DNA of 64,000 nt from Parapedobacter lycopersici (GTDB lineage: Bacteria > Bacteroidota > Bacteroidia > Sphingobacteriales > Sphingobacteriaceae). The notes beneath the pieces were generated by a model. The model was given only the letters and a program-made list of their open reading frames with translations. It had not been told where the DNA came from and did no database searches. Within the stretch, counting starts at the first letter, position 1, and every line of letters starts with the position of its first letter. Shown here piece after piece: positions 20,699 through 27,289 of this stretch. The stretch is from positions 1 through 64,000 of the forward strand of contig NZ_JAMSLW010000008.1 in NCBI RefSeq assembly GCF_024643285.1. Reading direction: 5' to 3'. The translations under genes and the position numbers were made by a program.

Positions 20699-20727
20699 TT
20701 TGTTTTTAGTTTAAAACATTATATTTG
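20699..20727 (+). promoter_or_regulatory. Promoter of the exbB operon
   Basis: TTTG at 20699-20702 and TATATTTG at 20720-20727 form a full -33/-7 pair with 17 bases between them. TTGACA at 20688 may add to it. The predicted A/U-rich leader to the ATG at 20821 is about 87 bases. Confidence 0.7.
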
Positions 20728-20820: not shown

Positions 20821-21651
20821 ATGGCAAACGCACCAAAAACAAGTACAGTTAAGAAAGAAAAAAGCAATTCAAGTTCGAATGTTTTTGCAAGTCTATCGAT
20901 TATTATATGTTTTATAATCGGGGCTTTAGTTTGGAAATATATCATGGGTGATCCAAACAACTTTATCGATAACAACCCGGAGAATCAACCTAAACCAGGT
21001 AACTATTTTGGAATGGTTTACCATGCAGGTATCGTTGTACCTGTGTTATTGGGCTTGTTTCTGATGGTGTGGGTGTTCTCTATTGAGCGTTTCATCGTAA
21101 TCAGCAGGGCTTCCGGAAATGGTAACGTAGGTAACTTCGTGCGCAAAATCCAGTCGCTTATCGGCGGTGGCAACATTGATTCGGCAATTGCAGAATGCGA
21201 TAGACAAAAAGGTTCCGTTGCGAACGTAATCAAATCAGGATTGCTTAAGTACAAAGATGTGTCCGCTAACCCGGCCCTTGATACGGAACAGGCAACACTG
21301 GCAATCCAGAAGGAAATTGAGGAAGCTACTGCATTGGAAATGCCGATGCTGGAAAAAAACCTGACGATCATTGCTACTTTGGTATCCATTGGTACACTGT
21401 GCGGACTGTTAGGTACAGTAACCGGGATGATTCGCGCATTCGCGGCGTTAGCTACTGGCGGTGCTCCAGACTCTGCGGCACTTGCAAACGGTATCTCTGA
21501 GGCGTTGGTGAACACGGCAACTGGTATCGCTACCTCTACGATTGCAATCGTATTTTACAACATCTTTACTTCAAAAATTGATACACTTACCTACTCTATT
21601 GACGAAGCTGGTTTTTCTATCGTGCAGACTTACGCAGCCAGTCACAAATAG
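20821..21651 (+). CDS. exbB: ExbB/TolQ/MotA-family proton channel protein
   Basis: Inner-membrane stator that, with ExbD, uses proton flow to energise TonB. 276 residues. There is an N-terminal helix (SLSIIICFIIGALVWKYIMG), a second at about 68-90, a long cytoplasmic loop, then two C-terminal helices. The family core is LLGTVTGMIRAFAALATGG and LANGISEALVNTATGIATSTIAIVFYN. It is the first gene of a seven-gene operon with two ExbD proteins and TonB. Confidence 0.93.
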   Translation: MANAPKTSTVKKEKSNSSSNVFASLSIIICFIIGALVWKYIMGDPNNFIDNNPENQPKPGNYFGMVYHAGIVVPVLLGLFLMVWVFSIERFIVISRASGNGNVGNFVRKIQSLIGGGNIDSAIAECDRQKGSVANVIKSGLLKYKDVSANPALDTEQATLAIQKEIEEATALEMPMLEKNLTIIATLVSIGTLCGLLGTVTGMIRAFAALATGGAPDSAALANGISEALVNTATGIATSTIAIVFYNIFTSKIDTLTYSIDEAGFSIVQTYAASHK

Positions 21652-21735
21652 AGAAAATAAAAAACTTTAGTCGGGTATATGGAAAACCCGTTGAAGTTGC
21701 ATCGTATCAGTATACAGTAAATTAAAATTACCAGG

Positions 21736-22362
21736 ATGCCAAAGGTAAAAGTAAAAAGAGCCAGTACATCGATAGATATGACCGCCATGTGCGATGTGTC
21801 TTTCTTGTTGCTCACGTTTTTTATATTGACAGCCACAGCGCGTGCACCGGAGCCACTTCCGGTAGACACCCCGGCGTCGGTTACACAGGTAAAGGTTCCG
21901 GATACCGATTTGGGACTGATTACCGTGGGCGGCGACGGTAAAGTGTTCTTCGGAGTAAAAGATCGGCATGTACGGGCGAGGATGCTCGAATTGATGTCGG
22001 AGAAATACGCAATGCCCTTTACGGAGCAAGAGCGGGGTCGTTTCTCCTTAATGGAAACATTCGGCGTGCCTATGGGTAATCTGAAGCAGCTTATCGCTTT
22101 GGATGCCACTGCCCAGACGCAGCCGGGGTTACAACCCGGAATCCCGGTGGATTCGACAGACGCATTGAGTAATGAGCTGTTTCACTGGATATACTCAGCA
22201 CGGGTAGCTACCAAGGAATTGCATGACGTAGAAATGCGGGTGTCAATCAAGGGAGATGCCGACGAGAAGTATCCTGAGATAAAGAAAGTAATGGATGTTC
22301 TTCAGAGCCAAAAGGTGAATAAGTTCAGCTTGATTACAAGCTTGAAAAACACCGTGGAATAA
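21736..22362 (+). CDS. exbD: ExbD-family biopolymer transport protein, first copy
   Basis: 208 residues with one N-terminal membrane helix carrying the proton-relay aspartate Asp20 (MTAMCDVSFLLLTFFIL). A periplasmic domain follows. That domain is longer than in classical ExbD (about 140 residues) and has an insert around residues 65-150 (KDRHVRARMLELMSEKYA ...). It pairs with the next ExbD, and both keep the key aspartate, so they may form a mixed dimer in the ExbB ring. Confidence 0.9.
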   Translation: MPKVKVKRASTSIDMTAMCDVSFLLLTFFILTATARAPEPLPVDTPASVTQVKVPDTDLGLITVGGDGKVFFGVKDRHVRARMLELMSEKYAMPFTEQERGRFSLMETFGVPMGNLKQLIALDATAQTQPGLQPGIPVDSTDALSNELFHWIYSARVATKELHDVEMRVSIKGDADEKYPEIKKVMDVLQSQKVNKFSLITSLKNTVE

Positions 22363-22396
22363 GCTGAAGAAATTAACAAATTAAGATTTTAACGCG

Positions 22397-22945
22397 ATGG
22401 CAGAATTAAATCAGGATAGCGGCGGAGGCAAAAAAGGCGGCAAGATCAGAAGTAAAAAGGCCGGTGGCAGGGTAGACCTTACCGCCATGGTGGACTTGGC
22501 GTTTCTGCTGATTACCTTCTTCATGCTGACCACCTCTATCAATAAGCCGAATGCCATGGATGTGGCGTTACCGGATAAGAACGAGGAGAATCCGGAAGAT
22601 CGGCTGGAAGTTGCCGATACCCGGACGATGACCCTGCTGCTGGGATCCAACAATAAGATTGAGTGGTACCTGGGAGAATACAGTAGCCCGATAGAAGGAC
22701 CGGAAGTGGTGGATTATGGAAAAGATGGGATTCGTTCGGTACTCCTGCAAAAGTTGAAGGAGATACCCCAACGAGCAGGAGGTGACCTTATTGTGGTGAT
22801 TCGCCCCAGTGATCGGTCTACGCACCGTAACCTGGTGGATATCCTTGACGAAATGAATATTGTACAAGCACCGATATACATGATCGGAACAATCAGTGAG
22901 GCGGAGATAGAGGTATTGGAACGTGACGGCTTATACAATGAGTAA
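22397..22945 (+). CDS. exbD: ExbD-family biopolymer transport protein, second copy
   Basis: 182 residues. A glycine/lysine-rich cytoplasmic start (SGGGKKGGKIRSKKAGG) leads into VDLTAMVDLAFLLITFFMLTTS with the proton-relay aspartate Asp33. The periplasmic ExbD domain follows (DLIVVIRPSDRSTHRNLVDILDEMNI). It is clearly diverged from the preceding copy. The two-ExbD arrangement is frequent in Bacteroidota Ton systems. Confidence 0.9.
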   Translation: MAELNQDSGGGKKGGKIRSKKAGGRVDLTAMVDLAFLLITFFMLTTSINKPNAMDVALPDKNEENPEDRLEVADTRTMTLLLGSNNKIEWYLGEYSSPIEGPEVVDYGKDGIRSVLLQKLKEIPQRAGGDLIVVIRPSDRSTHRNLVDILDEMNIVQAPIYMIGTISEAEIEVLERDGLYNE

Positions 22946-22973
22946 TTAACTATCACCACATAATATTACACAT

Positions 22974-23804
22974 ATGTTTGGTTCTAAATTAGATATTTTT
23001 AAAAGAGAGTGGCTCGATGTGGTGTTTGAGGGGCGGAATAAAGATTACGGAGCGTATGATCTCCGGAAAATAGCCCCCAAAGCGACAAACATTGGGTTGG
23101 TCGTTGCCTCGATCGGTTTTGTATTGCTGCTGATGGGGCCGGCGATTGCCAGATGGCTCGGTATTAATACCGACAGCGGGCCCGTTGAGAAGATAATAGA
23201 AACGGAAGTGGTACTTTCTGAACCACCCCCGGTAAATGAGGAGGAACCTCCTCCCCCCCCTCCTGTAGAACCTCCTCCCCCCCGGGTAGACCAGGTACGT
23301 ATGCCTGAGCCGAAGGTGGTGCCGGCGGAGCAGGTACAGGATGAGGAGCCGCCTACGGTGGAACAGCTGAAGTTGGCTGATCCGGGATCGAAAACAATCG
23401 AAGGCGACCCGAATGCAGAAATACGTATTGATCTGCCGGTTGGTGAGGGTGAAATTGATGCAGAAGTTACGGAAACTTCAAGTGATCAGATTTTCCAATC
23501 GGTGGAGATCAATCCGGAGCCACCCGGCGGAATGGCTGCATTTATGCAGTGGGTAGGTAAAAATTACCAATATCCGCAGGCAGCAATGGATGCCGGAGTG
23601 AATGGGCAGGTACAGGTTTCCTTTGTTGTGGAGCGTGACGGCAGCCTGACGGACCTGAAGGTTGTAAAAGACCTTAAATTCGGCACCGGGGAAGCAGCTA
23701 TAAAAATGTTGCAGAAGGCACCGAAATGGAGTCCGGGTATTCAGAATGGCCGGCCGGTACGGGTAGCTTATACCCTGCCTATCCGACTTAGCATTCAACA
23801 ATAG
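22974..23804 (+). CDS. tonB: TonB-family energy transducer
   Basis: 276 residues. The cytoplasmic start has NKDYGAYDLRK, typical of Bacteroidota TonB. One membrane helix (residues about 42-62) is followed by a proline-rich spacer (EEPPPPPPVEPPPPR, about 88-103). The TonB C-terminal domain comes last (YPQAAMDAGVNGQVQVSFVVERDGS ... WSPGIQNGRPVRVAYTLPIRL). It transmits the ExbB-ExbD motor force to outer-membrane receptors, such as the barrel at 12492 or others elsewhere in the genome. Confidence 0.94.
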   Translation: MFGSKLDIFKREWLDVVFEGRNKDYGAYDLRKIAPKATNIGLVVASIGFVLLLMGPAIARWLGINTDSGPVEKIIETEVVLSEPPPVNEEEPPPPPPVEPPPPRVDQVRMPEPKVVPAEQVQDEEPPTVEQLKLADPGSKTIEGDPNAEIRIDLPVGEGEIDAEVTETSSDQIFQSVEINPEPPGGMAAFMQWVGKNYQYPQAAMDAGVNGQVQVSFVVERDGSLTDLKVVKDLKFGTGEAAIKMLQKAPKWSPGIQNGRPVRVAYTLPIRLSIQQ

Positions 23805-23809
23805 TAATA

Positions 23810-24043
23810 TTGGCACGGTATCACCATAATGATGGTCCGCAATATAGACAGAAATCGCCCACGAAGCGGTTTCTGTCTGTTTTAGGACTTTTTATGTTTG
23901 GTTTCTATTTTGTGTTGGGACTTGCCATCATTTTTTGGAAGGATTTTCCCCTGCAAATTGACCAAACATACCGGGTATTGTTTGGATTACTGCTCATCGT
24001 ATATTCTTTTTTCAGGTTTGTGCGGCTTTGGCAGAACAGATAA
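23810..24043 (+). CDS. Small two-helix membrane protein in the exb operon
   Basis: 77 residues from a TTG start at 23810. It has a charged N-terminus (RYHHNDGPQYRQKSPTKRF) and two hydrophobic helices (VLGLFMFGFYFVLGLAIIFW and VLFGLLLIVYSFFRFVRLW). No ATG lies before the first helix, so the non-standard start is needed if this is a gene. I do not recognise a family. The location between tonB and the PstS-like gene, with short gaps on both sides, argues that it is real. Confidence 0.65.
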   Translation: MARYHHNDGPQYRQKSPTKRFLSVLGLFMFGFYFVLGLAIIFWKDFPLQIDQTYRVLFGLLLIVYSFFRFVRLWQNR

Positions 24044-24089
24044 TAACAAATAACTTTTTTGTGAAAAAAAGGAGTTTTTTTTCATACTT

Positions 24090-24998
24090 ATGAAAAAATC
24101 ACTATTATTACTGCTCATTATTGGGTTTGGTGTGTTTCTGGAGTCGTGCAATGGCGGACCCTCTAAAGATGATCAGACCATATTGACCGGACGGCTACGC
24201 GTTTTAGTGGATGAAAGCCTGTTGCCTATTATGGAGGAGCAGGCGGCGGTATTCGAGCATATTTACGACTATGCTGAAGTGGAGTTAGTCGATGGACCGG
24301 AAAACCAGCTTGTCGGAAAATTGTTCAACAGGGAGGCGGAAGTCATCGTGTTGACCAGACAATTCACCGAGGAGGAGAAAAAGTTCTTTGAAGCAAGGGA
24401 GTTCCGACCTCGCATAGCGCAATTTGCAACAGATGCCATTGCGCTGATTGCAAATCGAAATGCCCCTGATTCTATCATGACGGTGGATGATGTTATTCAG
24501 ATTATGCGCGGTAACCGGCCGGCCGGTTCGCAAACGCGACTGGTATTTGATAACCCGAACTCAAGTACGGTCCGGTTTTTGAAGGACCTGGCAGGTGTGG
24601 ACTCATTGCCGAGTGAAGGGATCTACGCCATGAGGTCGAATAGCGACGTGTTAAAGCACGTATATGAAACACCGCAATCGATCGGTGTTTTGGGGATCAA
24701 CTGGATTGTGCGTCCCGACAGCAGCTTGCAGCGTTATGTAGACGGGGTAAAGGTGCTGGCGATCAAGGGTCGGGCCGGGGGAGCGGGTGATAGCGGATAT
24801 TACAAACCGACGCAATCAAATTTGGCAGAAGGGTTATATCCACTTTCACGACCGGTTTATTTGATAAATTGCGAGCCGCGCAGGGGATTGGGAATGGGTT
24901 TTTCCGCATTTCTTTCCGGCCTTTCCGGACAGCGGATTATCCTGAAGTCCGGCTTAATGCCGGATAGCCTGCCACCAAGGGAGATTATTATTCGGTAA
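24090..24998 (+). CDS. PstS-like phosphate-binding-domain lipoprotein
   Basis: 302 residues with a lipoprotein signal (lipobox FLESC, Cys20) and a periplasmic-binding-protein fold of the PstS-like group. GRLRVLVDESLLPIMEEQAAVF starts the fold, VIVLTRQFTEEE and FATDAIALIANRNA continue it, and SQTRLVFDNPNSSTVRFLKD matches the ligand-loop region of PstS. No pstC/A/B permease genes follow, so it is not an ordinary ABC uptake protein. As an anchored protein in a Ton operon it may sense or present an anion at the periplasmic face. This is inference. Confidence 0.8.
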   Translation: MKKSLLLLLIIGFGVFLESCNGGPSKDDQTILTGRLRVLVDESLLPIMEEQAAVFEHIYDYAEVELVDGPENQLVGKLFNREAEVIVLTRQFTEEEKKFFEAREFRPRIAQFATDAIALIANRNAPDSIMTVDDVIQIMRGNRPAGSQTRLVFDNPNSSTVRFLKDLAGVDSLPSEGIYAMRSNSDVLKHVYETPQSIGVLGINWIVRPDSSLQRYVDGVKVLAIKGRAGGAGDSGYYKPTQSNLAEGLYPLSRPVYLINCEPRRGLGMGFSAFLSGLSGQRIILKSGLMPDSLPPREIIIR

Positions 24999-25036
24999 TA
25001 CAAATAACAGAGTAACTATTTAATGTAATTAATAAG

Positions 25037-26770
25037 ATGAAGATGATGAAAAGCGCAATGATGTGGGGCGTATCGCTTGCTTTTATGGCCACAACCGTGC
25101 AGGCACAGAGCCTGGACGAAGCTAAGAAAGCAATAGACGCGGAGCAGTATGCCAAAGCCAGAGGCGTATTGGAAACACTGGTCCAAAGTAAACCCAACGC
25201 TGGAGAGAATTATTTTTATTTAGGGCTTGTATATATTCACAACGCTCACTTGGATTCAGCGTTGGCAGTGTTCAATAAAGGGTTGGAGGCAGATCCAAAG
25301 ACCAGTTTGAATGCTGTTGGACAGGGAATTGTGTCCCTTTATAAGGGGGACGCTAATGCTGCGAATACCAAGTTTGTTGAGGTGTCGCAGAGCCTGAAAC
25401 GCCGCGATTACCTTGAGTTGTATCATATTGGCCGTGCTTATGTTGATGCACCAACCCCTGATTATCAGAAGGCAGTTGAATACCTCGAACAGGCAAAGGC
25501 TAAGGACAAGGACAGCGATCCCATGATCCCGTTGGCCATGGGCGATGCTTATTTTGGCCTCAAAAATAATAGTATGGCGTATAAGAGCTATCGTGATGCC
25601 ACGATGCTTGACAATACATTGACCCGTGCTAAGGTACAGATGGCTGTTATTGTCCGGGGCTCACACGCTTGGCAGGAAGCGATAGACGGTTTGCAGAAAA
25701 TTGCTTCCGAAGTTCCTGACTATGCACCTACCTACCGTGAATTAGCTGAAACCTATCATGCCTGGGCACAAACAGCAACGACGGTTGAGGATTACAATGC
25801 CCGTAACAAGCAGGCCGTGGAATTCTACAAGCAGTATATGGATAAAACTGACTATTCAGTTGATTCCCGTATACGCTATGCTGACTTCCTGGTATTCGCA
25901 GGTGATTACACCGAATTGCAGGTGCAGGCCCGTGAACTGGCTGAACTGGAGGATGTAAATCCGAAAGTACTCCGTTACCTGGGTTATTCGGCCTATGAGA
26001 ATGGCGAGTTCCAGGAAAGTAAGAGTGCACTGGATAGACTGTTTAGCCGGATGGAGGCTGATCGGATTATTCCGCGTGACTACCTGCATTTAGGTATGGC
26101 CGATTTAAAATTGGCTGCAACTGATCAGGCTCTTTTTGATGAAGGAATCAGCCACTTGAAGAAAGCGGTTGCAGCAGATTCATCGATCGCGGATGACCTG
26201 CATGATGTAGGCATGGAATTGTTTACCAATAAGCAATACGCAAACGCAGCGAAGGTGTTTGAGATCGCGGCTTCGACACCGACTTCAAGAAATTACATTT
26301 ATGACAACTTCTATCTTGGATTTGCTGGTTACTATGCCGTAGCAACGACACCGTTGGACCAACGTGGGGAAGCACATCAACAATTATTGCAAGAAGCGGA
26401 TTCCGCACTAGGCGTGGTGATTGATAAGGCACCTACCACACAGGATGCCTATCTGTTCCGGGCCCGGGTAAATAACCTGTTGGATGATAACGAAAATCCG
26501 CAGGGTCTTGCCGTTCCCTACTTTGAAAAGTATATCGAGGTGGTGAAGGAAAAGGGCGATGCTGAAGTACAGAAAGCCAAGAATAATTTCATTGAAATTT
26601 ACAATAACCTGGCTGCAATCAACGCGAAAAACGGGGAATACCAAAAAGCCCGGAATTACTTAACAGAAACCCTGAAGCTTGATCCTGAAAATGCGTACGC
26701 TAAGCAAACGATGGCTTATTTAGAGCAAGCATCTACTACTACGTCAGCTCAGGATACCTCAGCCCAGTAG
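25037..26770 (+). CDS. Periplasmic TPR-repeat protein of the exb operon
   Basis: 577 residues with a signal peptide (MMWGVSLAFMATTVQAQ) and tandem tetratricopeptide-type repeats through most of the length. Clear units are near residues 15-90 (AEQYAKARGVLETLVQ ... YIHNAHLDSALAVFNKGLEADPK) and at the C-terminus (NAKNGEYQKARNYLTETLKLDPENAYAKQTMAYL). It ends in a short Ser/Thr/Gln tail (TTTSAQDTSAQ). TPR proteins act as scaffolds, and this one would sit in the periplasm beside the Ton motor parts. It is the last gene before a strong terminator. Confidence 0.85.
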   Translation: MKMMKSAMMWGVSLAFMATTVQAQSLDEAKKAIDAEQYAKARGVLETLVQSKPNAGENYFYLGLVYIHNAHLDSALAVFNKGLEADPKTSLNAVGQGIVSLYKGDANAANTKFVEVSQSLKRRDYLELYHIGRAYVDAPTPDYQKAVEYLEQAKAKDKDSDPMIPLAMGDAYFGLKNNSMAYKSYRDATMLDNTLTRAKVQMAVIVRGSHAWQEAIDGLQKIASEVPDYAPTYRELAETYHAWAQTATTVEDYNARNKQAVEFYKQYMDKTDYSVDSRIRYADFLVFAGDYTELQVQARELAELEDVNPKVLRYLGYSAYENGEFQESKSALDRLFSRMEADRIIPRDYLHLGMADLKLAATDQALFDEGISHLKKAVAADSSIADDLHDVGMELFTNKQYANAAKVFEIAASTPTSRNYIYDNFYLGFAGYYAVATTPLDQRGEAHQQLLQEADSALGVVIDKAPTTQDAYLFRARVNNLLDDNENPQGLAVPYFEKYIEVVKEKGDAEVQKAKNNFIEIYNNLAAINAKNGEYQKARNYLTETLKLDPENAYAKQTMAYLEQASTTTSAQDTSAQ

Positions 26771-26793
26771 TTGAATACAAATTGATAAGATAG

Positions 26794-26825
26794 AAAGCGC
26801 CGGAGTTATTCTCCGGCGCTTTTTT
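26794..26825 (+). terminator. Intrinsic terminator of the exb operon
   Basis: AGCGCCGGAG pairs with CTCCGGCGCT around a TTATT loop and is followed by a run of T. The 10-bp GC-rich stem ends the seven-gene operon. Confidence 0.92.
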
Positions 26826-26911: not shown

Positions 26912-27289
26912 ATGGCAGCGGAAGCGTTAAGTACCCCTAATGATTATTTGCCCATATTAATTCAGCTGATTGTTGCAGCTGGTTTTGGTATAGGTACCAT
27001 TTTAATTACTCACCTCATTGGTCCTAAGGTACGTACGGAGAATAAGCTTGGCGCTTTTGAATCAGGTATAGAAGTTGTTGGGAACGCACGTCAGCCGTTT
27101 TCAATCAAGTATTTCATGGTGGCCATCCTGTTCGTTATTTTCGACATCGAAGTCATTTTTATGTATCCCTGGGCGGTTAATTTCCGGGAGTTCGGACTTT
27201 CGGGATTAATTGAGATGTTCGTCTTTATGGCGCTGCTGCTTTTGGGCTTTATTTATGTGATCAAGCGGAAGGCGCTGGAGTGGGACTGA
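26912..27289 (+). CDS. nuoA: NADH-quinone oxidoreductase subunit A
   Basis: Small membrane subunit of complex I (125 residues, three helices). Conserved segments are PKVRTENKLGAFESGIEVVGNARQPFSIKYFMVAILFVIFDIEVIFMYPWAV, with the loop acidic residues of the quinone-site region. It is the first gene of a 14-subunit cluster, but about 125 bases with their own signals separate it from nuoB. Confidence 0.94.
   Translation: MAAEALSTPNDYLPILIQLIVAAGFGIGTILITHLIGPKVRTENKLGAFESGIEVVGNARQPFSIKYFMVAILFVIFDIEVIFMYPWAVNFREFGLSGLIEMFVFMALLLLGFIYVIKRKALEWD

Follow-up and report, generated by a model that had tools for sequence, protein, structure and literature searches.

What do a tiny membrane protein, a phosphate-binding-like lipoprotein and a tetratricopeptide repeat (TPR) protein do in a Ton gene cluster? 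The Ton motor of Bacteroidota is usually treated as the three-protein machine of E. coli. The question is raised by a locus in a 64,000-nucleotide stretch of Parapedobacter lycopersici DNA (positions 1 to 64,000 of contig NZ_JAMSLW010000008.1, called the window below), which belongs to contig C21 of a 3.62-Mb genome (G000). According to the list of open reading frames (ORFs) of the window, seven genes stand in a row on the + strand between nucleotides 20821 and 26770: exbB (20821..21651), exbD1 (21736..22362), exbD2 (22397..22945), tonB (22974..23804), a gene for a tiny membrane protein (23810..24043, tiny below), the gene for a PstS-fold lipoprotein (24090..24998, PBP below), and the gene for a TPR superhelix protein (25037..26770). 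Six of the seven proteins match Pfam models over cut-off. The domains of a TonB-ExbB-ExbD system, MotA_ExbB (102 bits), ExbD (67 and 56 bits) and TonB_C (62 bits), all stand over their curated cut-offs within this one cluster, together with PBP_like_2 (100 bits) and several TPR models; no Pfam match over cut-off was found for the window tiny protein.

In this cluster the Ton motor has a larger, conserved form that includes three dedicated partners, and the work of these three we infer. With moderate confidence, we regard tiny, PBP and the TPR protein as periplasmic partners that are dedicated to the main Ton motor and probably required by it; in this motor, ExbB, ExbD1/ExbD2 and TonB would drive many transporters. 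A sequence-only reading of the locus had listed the same genes in front of one terminator and proposed a Ton complex with dedicated periplasmic parts. The ORFs, the Pfam matches and a hairpin with a T run bear out the gene list, and the proposal is supported by the comparisons described below, as far as sequences can support it.

Gene order and co-occurrence across Bacteroidota

To describe the arrangement over the phylum, 39 loci were hand-picked from the listed hits, about one to two per family (40 regions, one duplicate dropped), and their genes were called by profiles seeded from the window proteins. All seven genes are found in order in 26 of these 39 family-spread loci, two of which (L061 and L069) include an extra tonB. 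Only the tiny gene is missing in three others (L071-L073), and one locus (L062) is cut at exbB by the contig end. From a named collection, further loci were recruited by PBP; at least 594 relatives matched, and the top 80 were kept. Every one of these 80, which come from Parapedobacter, Pedobacter, Daejeonella, Flavobacterium and others, has tonB, tiny, PBP and TPR in order, three of them with an extra tonB between tiny and PBP (L104, L133, L167). The exbB gene is also present in 74, and in the other six too little of the contig precedes the cluster for exbB to be visible. The closest PBP matches among the same best 80 are those of Parapedobacter (63-69% identity). Of 20 further loci, chosen for holding PBP or ExbB hits, 10 include all seven genes, several with extra tonB copies and one (L242) with an extra exbD, and three lack only tiny. 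Contigs of metagenome-assembled genomes titled Klebsiella pneumoniae and Bifidobacterium breve (L124, L169) bear the Bacteroidota Ton cluster, and these labels are almost surely wrong.

The ExbB of the seven-gene operon is a type of its own, since the best matches in 26 genomes score either 297-388 bits or at most 116 bits. We defined operon-type ExbB by E < 1e-45, a value that falls in a score gap over 392 genomes, between 9.4e-68 for the weakest member of the type and 7.1e-43 for the strongest generic match. A strong PBP was defined by E < 1e-56. Phylum-wide there is no gap at this value (neighbours 195.7 and 189.2 bits). A gap exists within the class of the window, where the weakest strong hit is 1.8e-73 and the other 37 genomes match only in G170 (2.3e-35) and G266 (4.2e-21). 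In the 105 genomes of this class, the family of the window among them, 68 have both the operon-type ExbB and a strong PBP, 37 have neither, and none is discordant. The 392 genomes of the phylum divide into 121 with both, one with PBP only (G363, an assembly in 480 contigs), 101 with ExbB only and 169 with neither, and the genomes in both counts are not independent. The ExbB type and PBP are also jointly absent within genera, namely g38 (G121, G325) and g64 (G266). The phylum-wide order and the joint absence led us to reject a chance adjacency of the seven genes. The seven-gene Ton form is ancient and typical of Bacteroidota: the gene-order check named in the sequence-only reading came out in its favor, with the order kept phylum-wide and PBP tracking operon-type ExbB even where the two are unlinked.

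Several observations weigh against partners that are both dedicated and required. The PBP-TPR part lies away from the motor in five of the 39 loci (L053, L063, L064, L080, L087), accompanied by tiny in four and by tonB in one, and the seven-gene layout is absent in four others (L075, L078, L079, L083). The tiny gene was not found in loci L071-L073, L237, L241, L251 and L219. Operon-type ExbB occurs without a strong PBP hit in the 101 of 392 genomes counted above, a number that is overstated because deep genomes among them bear the cluster with a diverged PBP. On the other hand, both f33 genomes inspected lack the layout and are true exceptions (G079, locus L078; G113, loci L079 and L216). Finally, the module is absent where the only ExbB of a genome is generic, and it is therefore not a requirement of Ton transport as such.

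In all eight detached-module genomes whose ExbB region was read (G052, G046, G307, G289, G400, G072, G025, G216), an operon-type exbB and two exbDs are found elsewhere (L207-L213, L253), about 20 kb from the module in G289, G400 and G072 and far off or on another contig in the other five. A tonB lies beside this remote exbB-exbD-exbD in six of the eight. Another arrangement is found in L229 (G423) and L235 (G338), in which exbB-exbD-exbD is directly followed by PBP, with no tonB and with a TPR-like gene upstream; PBP is therefore tied to the motor. Since the PBP-TPR genes, mostly together with tiny, can be found apart from the motor, they are a sub-module of their own, a nuance beyond the sequence-only reading. 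A different rearrangement of the module is seen in L075, L083, L248 and L249, which include a tandem PBP pair without a TPR gene; in the last three the tandem PBPs are followed by proteins of about 300-490 amino acids. In L078 and L079, PBP is followed by a protein of about 425 amino acids with one N-terminal hydrophobic stretch, and the operon-type ExbB of G113 is located elsewhere (L216).

The PstS-fold lipoprotein and its cleft

PBP is a 302-amino acid protein with a lipobox cysteine (C20) that is invariant in the 34 PBPs of our alignment. Its AlphaFold2 model has two lobes and is confident, with a predicted local distance difference test score (pLDDT) of 91.4 and a predicted template modelling score (pTM) of 0.84. 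VIA and Foldseek rankings served to judge the fold only, and the top VIA matches are phosphate-binding proteins, PDB 4omb (Z 26.0, 2.4 Å over 249 positions) and PDB 4gd5 (Z 25.9, 2.0 Å over 233 positions). The likeness to these PstS proteins consists of the fold and the PBP_like_2 family. Unlike them, the window PBP lacks the phosphate loops and pstCAB neighbors, and it scores under the PstS family cut-off of TIGR02136 (41.9 versus 206.6 bits).

The loss of the phosphate loops was followed in 50 Ton-family PBPs, made up of the 34 alignment rows, among them the window and the detached modules, plus 16 deep loci. Fourteen PBPs were excluded from this set (eight tandem, two from motor-PBP loci, two solitary and two of f33), none of which has the loop 1 GS. 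The four loops (GS, GGG, SR and RxxxSGT) are kept in all 10 PstS controls from the same phylum, which are split from the Ton-family PBPs with a FastTree support of 1.0. Eight of these controls adjoin two permease-size ORFs and an ABC ATPase, as judged by size, order and Walker motif; the other two lie on L234, a 3.6-kb contig with no permease visible, and three controls (L227, L232, L233) represent one genus. By contrast, none of the 50 Ton-family PBPs retains the loop 1 GS, the loop 2 GGG or the loop 4 arginine (two are gapped there). Loop 1 has instead D41 in 41 and E42 in 37 of the 50, the loop 3 arginine (R90) is kept in 47, and S158 is found in 44. Positions D41, E42, R90, S158 and S159 are all at or above the 87th conservation percentile, and the cleft has therefore been remodelled instead of simply decaying.

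A search for PstC gave no match in the whole genome, and the same search was positive in 14 of 14 control genomes, 12 of them over cut-off. The ORFs listed next to PBP in the window include no Pst permease, and no second PBP_like_2 protein over cut-off was found in the genome. A weak PBP_like_2 hit on contig C20 (21.7 bits, under cut-off) was considered as a second PstS and dismissed, the ORF being by eye a LysR-type regulator. A phosphate importer was rejected, as no PstC was found in the genome and the phosphate loops are lost. The earlier description of the protein as a PstS-like lipoprotein lacking a Pst permease thus holds, and that of the locus as something other than a phosphate ABC importer is strongly supported. 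The ligand of PBP is very probably not phosphate, and PBP is very probably not a Pst receptor.

A two-lobed predicted fold with a cleft that is remodelled and still conserved at D41, E42, R90 and S158 could also mean that the Ton motor is ligand-gated, PBP binding a ligand other than phosphate and the closing of its cleft switching or tuning the motor. However, loop 2 varies, as do parts of loop 4, and the top-conserved residues Y250, P251 and P291 lie outside the four loops, a distribution that counts against this account and against the partner reading as well; we judge such gating unlikely. One specific version deserves a tentative mention, doubtful as it is: a re-tooled PstS-fold lipoprotein might sense a periplasmic ligand and, via the TPR superhelix, clutch the ExbB-ExbD1-ExbD2-TonB motor on and off. 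If so, a ligand-clutched motor would represent regulated Ton energisation dating from early Bacteroidota.

Motor proteins, remaining partners and borders of the cluster

The exbB gene codes for the long operon-type ExbB of 276 amino acids, and exbD1 and exbD2 code for proteins of 208 and 182 amino acids, respectively. The proton-relay aspartate that had been read in both ExbDs is indeed there (D20 in ExbD1 and D33 in ExbD2), and an aspartate occupies this intramembrane position in all 94 aligned ExbDs, the two of the window among them. In a tree restricted to loci with exactly two ExbD hits (47 loci, window included), the products of the first and second exbD genes form two clades, 47 versus 47, with a FastTree split support of 1.0. 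ExbD1 and ExbD2 are thus separate paralogues and an old pair whose order has been kept, and on that account a mixed ExbD dimer is suggested.

The tiny gene starts with TTG 5 bases past the tonB stop codon. Its 77-amino acid product belongs to a conserved family; by eye it has two hydrophobic segments, and a Gly/Arg motif is conserved at the C-terminus. The two termini carry basic residues, from which a hairpin with both of them inside is suggested by eye. An attempt to name the family from Pfam gave weak scattered matches over 29 members, DUF308 being the commonest (nine members). The TPR protein (577 amino acids) begins with an N-terminal signal-like helix, and its model consists of helical hairpins throughout (pLDDT 93.3, pTM 0.85). 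PDB 3u4t, the C-terminal part of the Cytophaga hutchinsonii TPR protein Q11TI6, aligns in one stretch with the latter half of the TPR family profile (251.7 bits), with 25% identity over 278 columns; in the fold list it ranks 29, with a template modelling score (TM-score) by target length of 0.58. Designed TPR proteins outscore 3u4t with the profile, but they do so through several repeated stretches. PDB 3u4t, deposited under a generic name, is probably a solved fragment of this TPR family.

The intergenic gaps are 84, 34, 28, 5, 46 and 38 bases from 5′ to 3′. The cluster is followed by an intrinsic terminator-like hairpin of 12 pairs ending in TTTTTT (26794..26825, +), consisting of a G+C-rich hairpin at 26794-26822 and six T at 26820-26825; the terminator scanner listed the minus-strand reading of this hairpin, and the + strand reading, in which the T run is visible, was taken from the sequence itself. 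Upstream of exbB, a pattern search identified a site that resembles a Bacteroidota promoter, TTTG-N17-TANNTTTG (20699..20727, +). The site is a candidate operon promoter and matches the Bacteroidota promoter consensus, TTTG-N17-TATATTTG. The pattern occurs five times in the window against 2.13 expected, and at least five times in eight of 100 shuffles, and is thus weakly above chance. Downstream of the hairpin, nuoA starts at 26912. Nuo-like genes directly follow the Ton cluster or a detached PBP-TPR part in the window (from 26912 on) and in L064, L218 and L219, which suggests that this shared location is old.

Function and known relatives

Genome-wide there is one PF03544 (TonB_C) match, the 276-amino acid TonB of the cluster, against 68 plug domains, of which 66 pass the cut-off. 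A second exbB-exbD set on contig C1 (L002) is generic and is accompanied by a TonB-like protein that PF03544 does not match. The main Ton system of the cell is therefore very probably encoded by the seven-gene operon. Similar generic sets, with a folC-like neighbor by eye, are found in L220 and L221, and the sets of L002, L220 and L221 are possibly a Tol-like system of Bacteroidota.

A likely counterpart is found in Riemerella anatipestifer. In the available part of the report on this species, the tonB2 locus has the same order and similar sizes, with leuS upstream and a gene for a "phosphate" binding protein downstream (PMC4446302). In loci L065 and L066 all seven genes are present, preceded by a gene that by eye is leuS-like, and the Riemerella locus is very likely of the same type. 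TonB2 is described there as the main iron and hemin system, and the tonB2 mutant as defective in iron and hemin uptake (PMC4446302). The same text reports that E. coli with the four-gene TonB2 complex, without the downstream genes, could not use hemin via the Riemerella receptor, while the TonB1 complex worked, and that only the TonB1 complex supported iron uptake in E. coli (PMC4446302). A need for tiny, PBP and the TPR protein could explain both failures. On the opposite side, the authors ascribe the hemin failure to the specificity of the receptor for TonB1 and state that they do not understand the iron result (PMC4446302). With Serratia receptors both complexes failed (PMC4446302), and poor expression is another possible cause. 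Unlike our description, the accessible text treats TonB2 as a four-gene system and merely mentions the downstream gene (PMC4446302). In our search, mostly without subscription papers and bioRxiv, this report was the only one whose available text mentions the binding-protein gene of the seven-gene cluster.

Two other systems are relevant. As reported for Vibrio vulnificus, the last gene of the TonB2 cluster codes for a 425-amino acid TPR protein, TtpD2, that is essential for transport (PMC6957404). The window cluster likewise ends with a TPR gene after tonB, a likeness of gene position, and the role of its partners may be analogous to that of TtpD2. On the other hand, TtpB2 and TtpC2 are upstream in Vibrio, and the available text names neither a PBP-fold lipoprotein nor a tiny membrane protein (PMC6957404). 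Regarding Flavobacterium psychrophilum, the excerpts available state that the TonB-ExbBD system is highly expressed in all samples (PMC9723704) and that inactivation of exbD2 impairs growth under iron restriction (Alvarez 2008, as cited in PMC9331221).

The layout of the cluster, with a motor, two R/D proteins, a transducer, a lipoprotein and a TPR protein, recalls tolQ-tolR-tolA-tolB-pal-cpoB. A Tol-Pal-like envelope system, in which a motor of ExbB/TolQ and ExbD/TolR type would drive outer-membrane tethering or division and the lipoprotein and TPR protein would replace Pal/TolB and CpoB, has therefore to be considered. The ExbB of the window scores best against the TolQ model, although under its cut-off (89.8 versus 221 bits), and TolQ structures are its top matches in the PDB. 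However, the transducer includes TonB_C over cut-off and is the only such match to serve 66 plugs, no OmpA-like Pal or TolB domain occurs in the seven proteins, which were the part of the genome searched for them, and the iron and hemin uptake defect of the R. anatipestifer tonB2 mutant, as given in the available text (PMC4446302), speaks for transport. A Tol-Pal-like role is thus improbable. That PBP is an orphan solute receptor, serving another importer or sensing only and located with the Ton genes as a convenience, would suit its PBP_like_2 fold and the separable module (L053, L063, L064, L080), but it is very improbable given that no PstC was found in the genome, that PBP is jointly absent with operon-type ExbB and that motor-PBP loci without tonB exist (L229, L235).

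With tiny, PBP and the TPR protein as dedicated partners, the system could operate as follows. ExbB and the ExbD1/ExbD2 pair would draw on the proton motive force to move TonB, which would pull the plugs of many outer-membrane transporters, and the tiny hairpin would be a neighbor of the motor within the inner membrane. In the periplasm, the PstS-fold lipoprotein, which very probably no longer binds phosphate, and the long TPR superhelix may together make up a scaffold by which the TonB/ExbD part is held or coupled en route to the outer membrane. That the proteins form a physical complex and that the partners are needed is what we infer, together with the membrane assigned to the lipoprotein and the scaffold role. 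If the three extra genes are required, E. coli reconstitutions without them would be expected to fail, as one four-gene construct did. If this reading is true, the Ton complex of Bacteroidota would be a larger machine with two different ExbDs, undescribed in the searchable literature.

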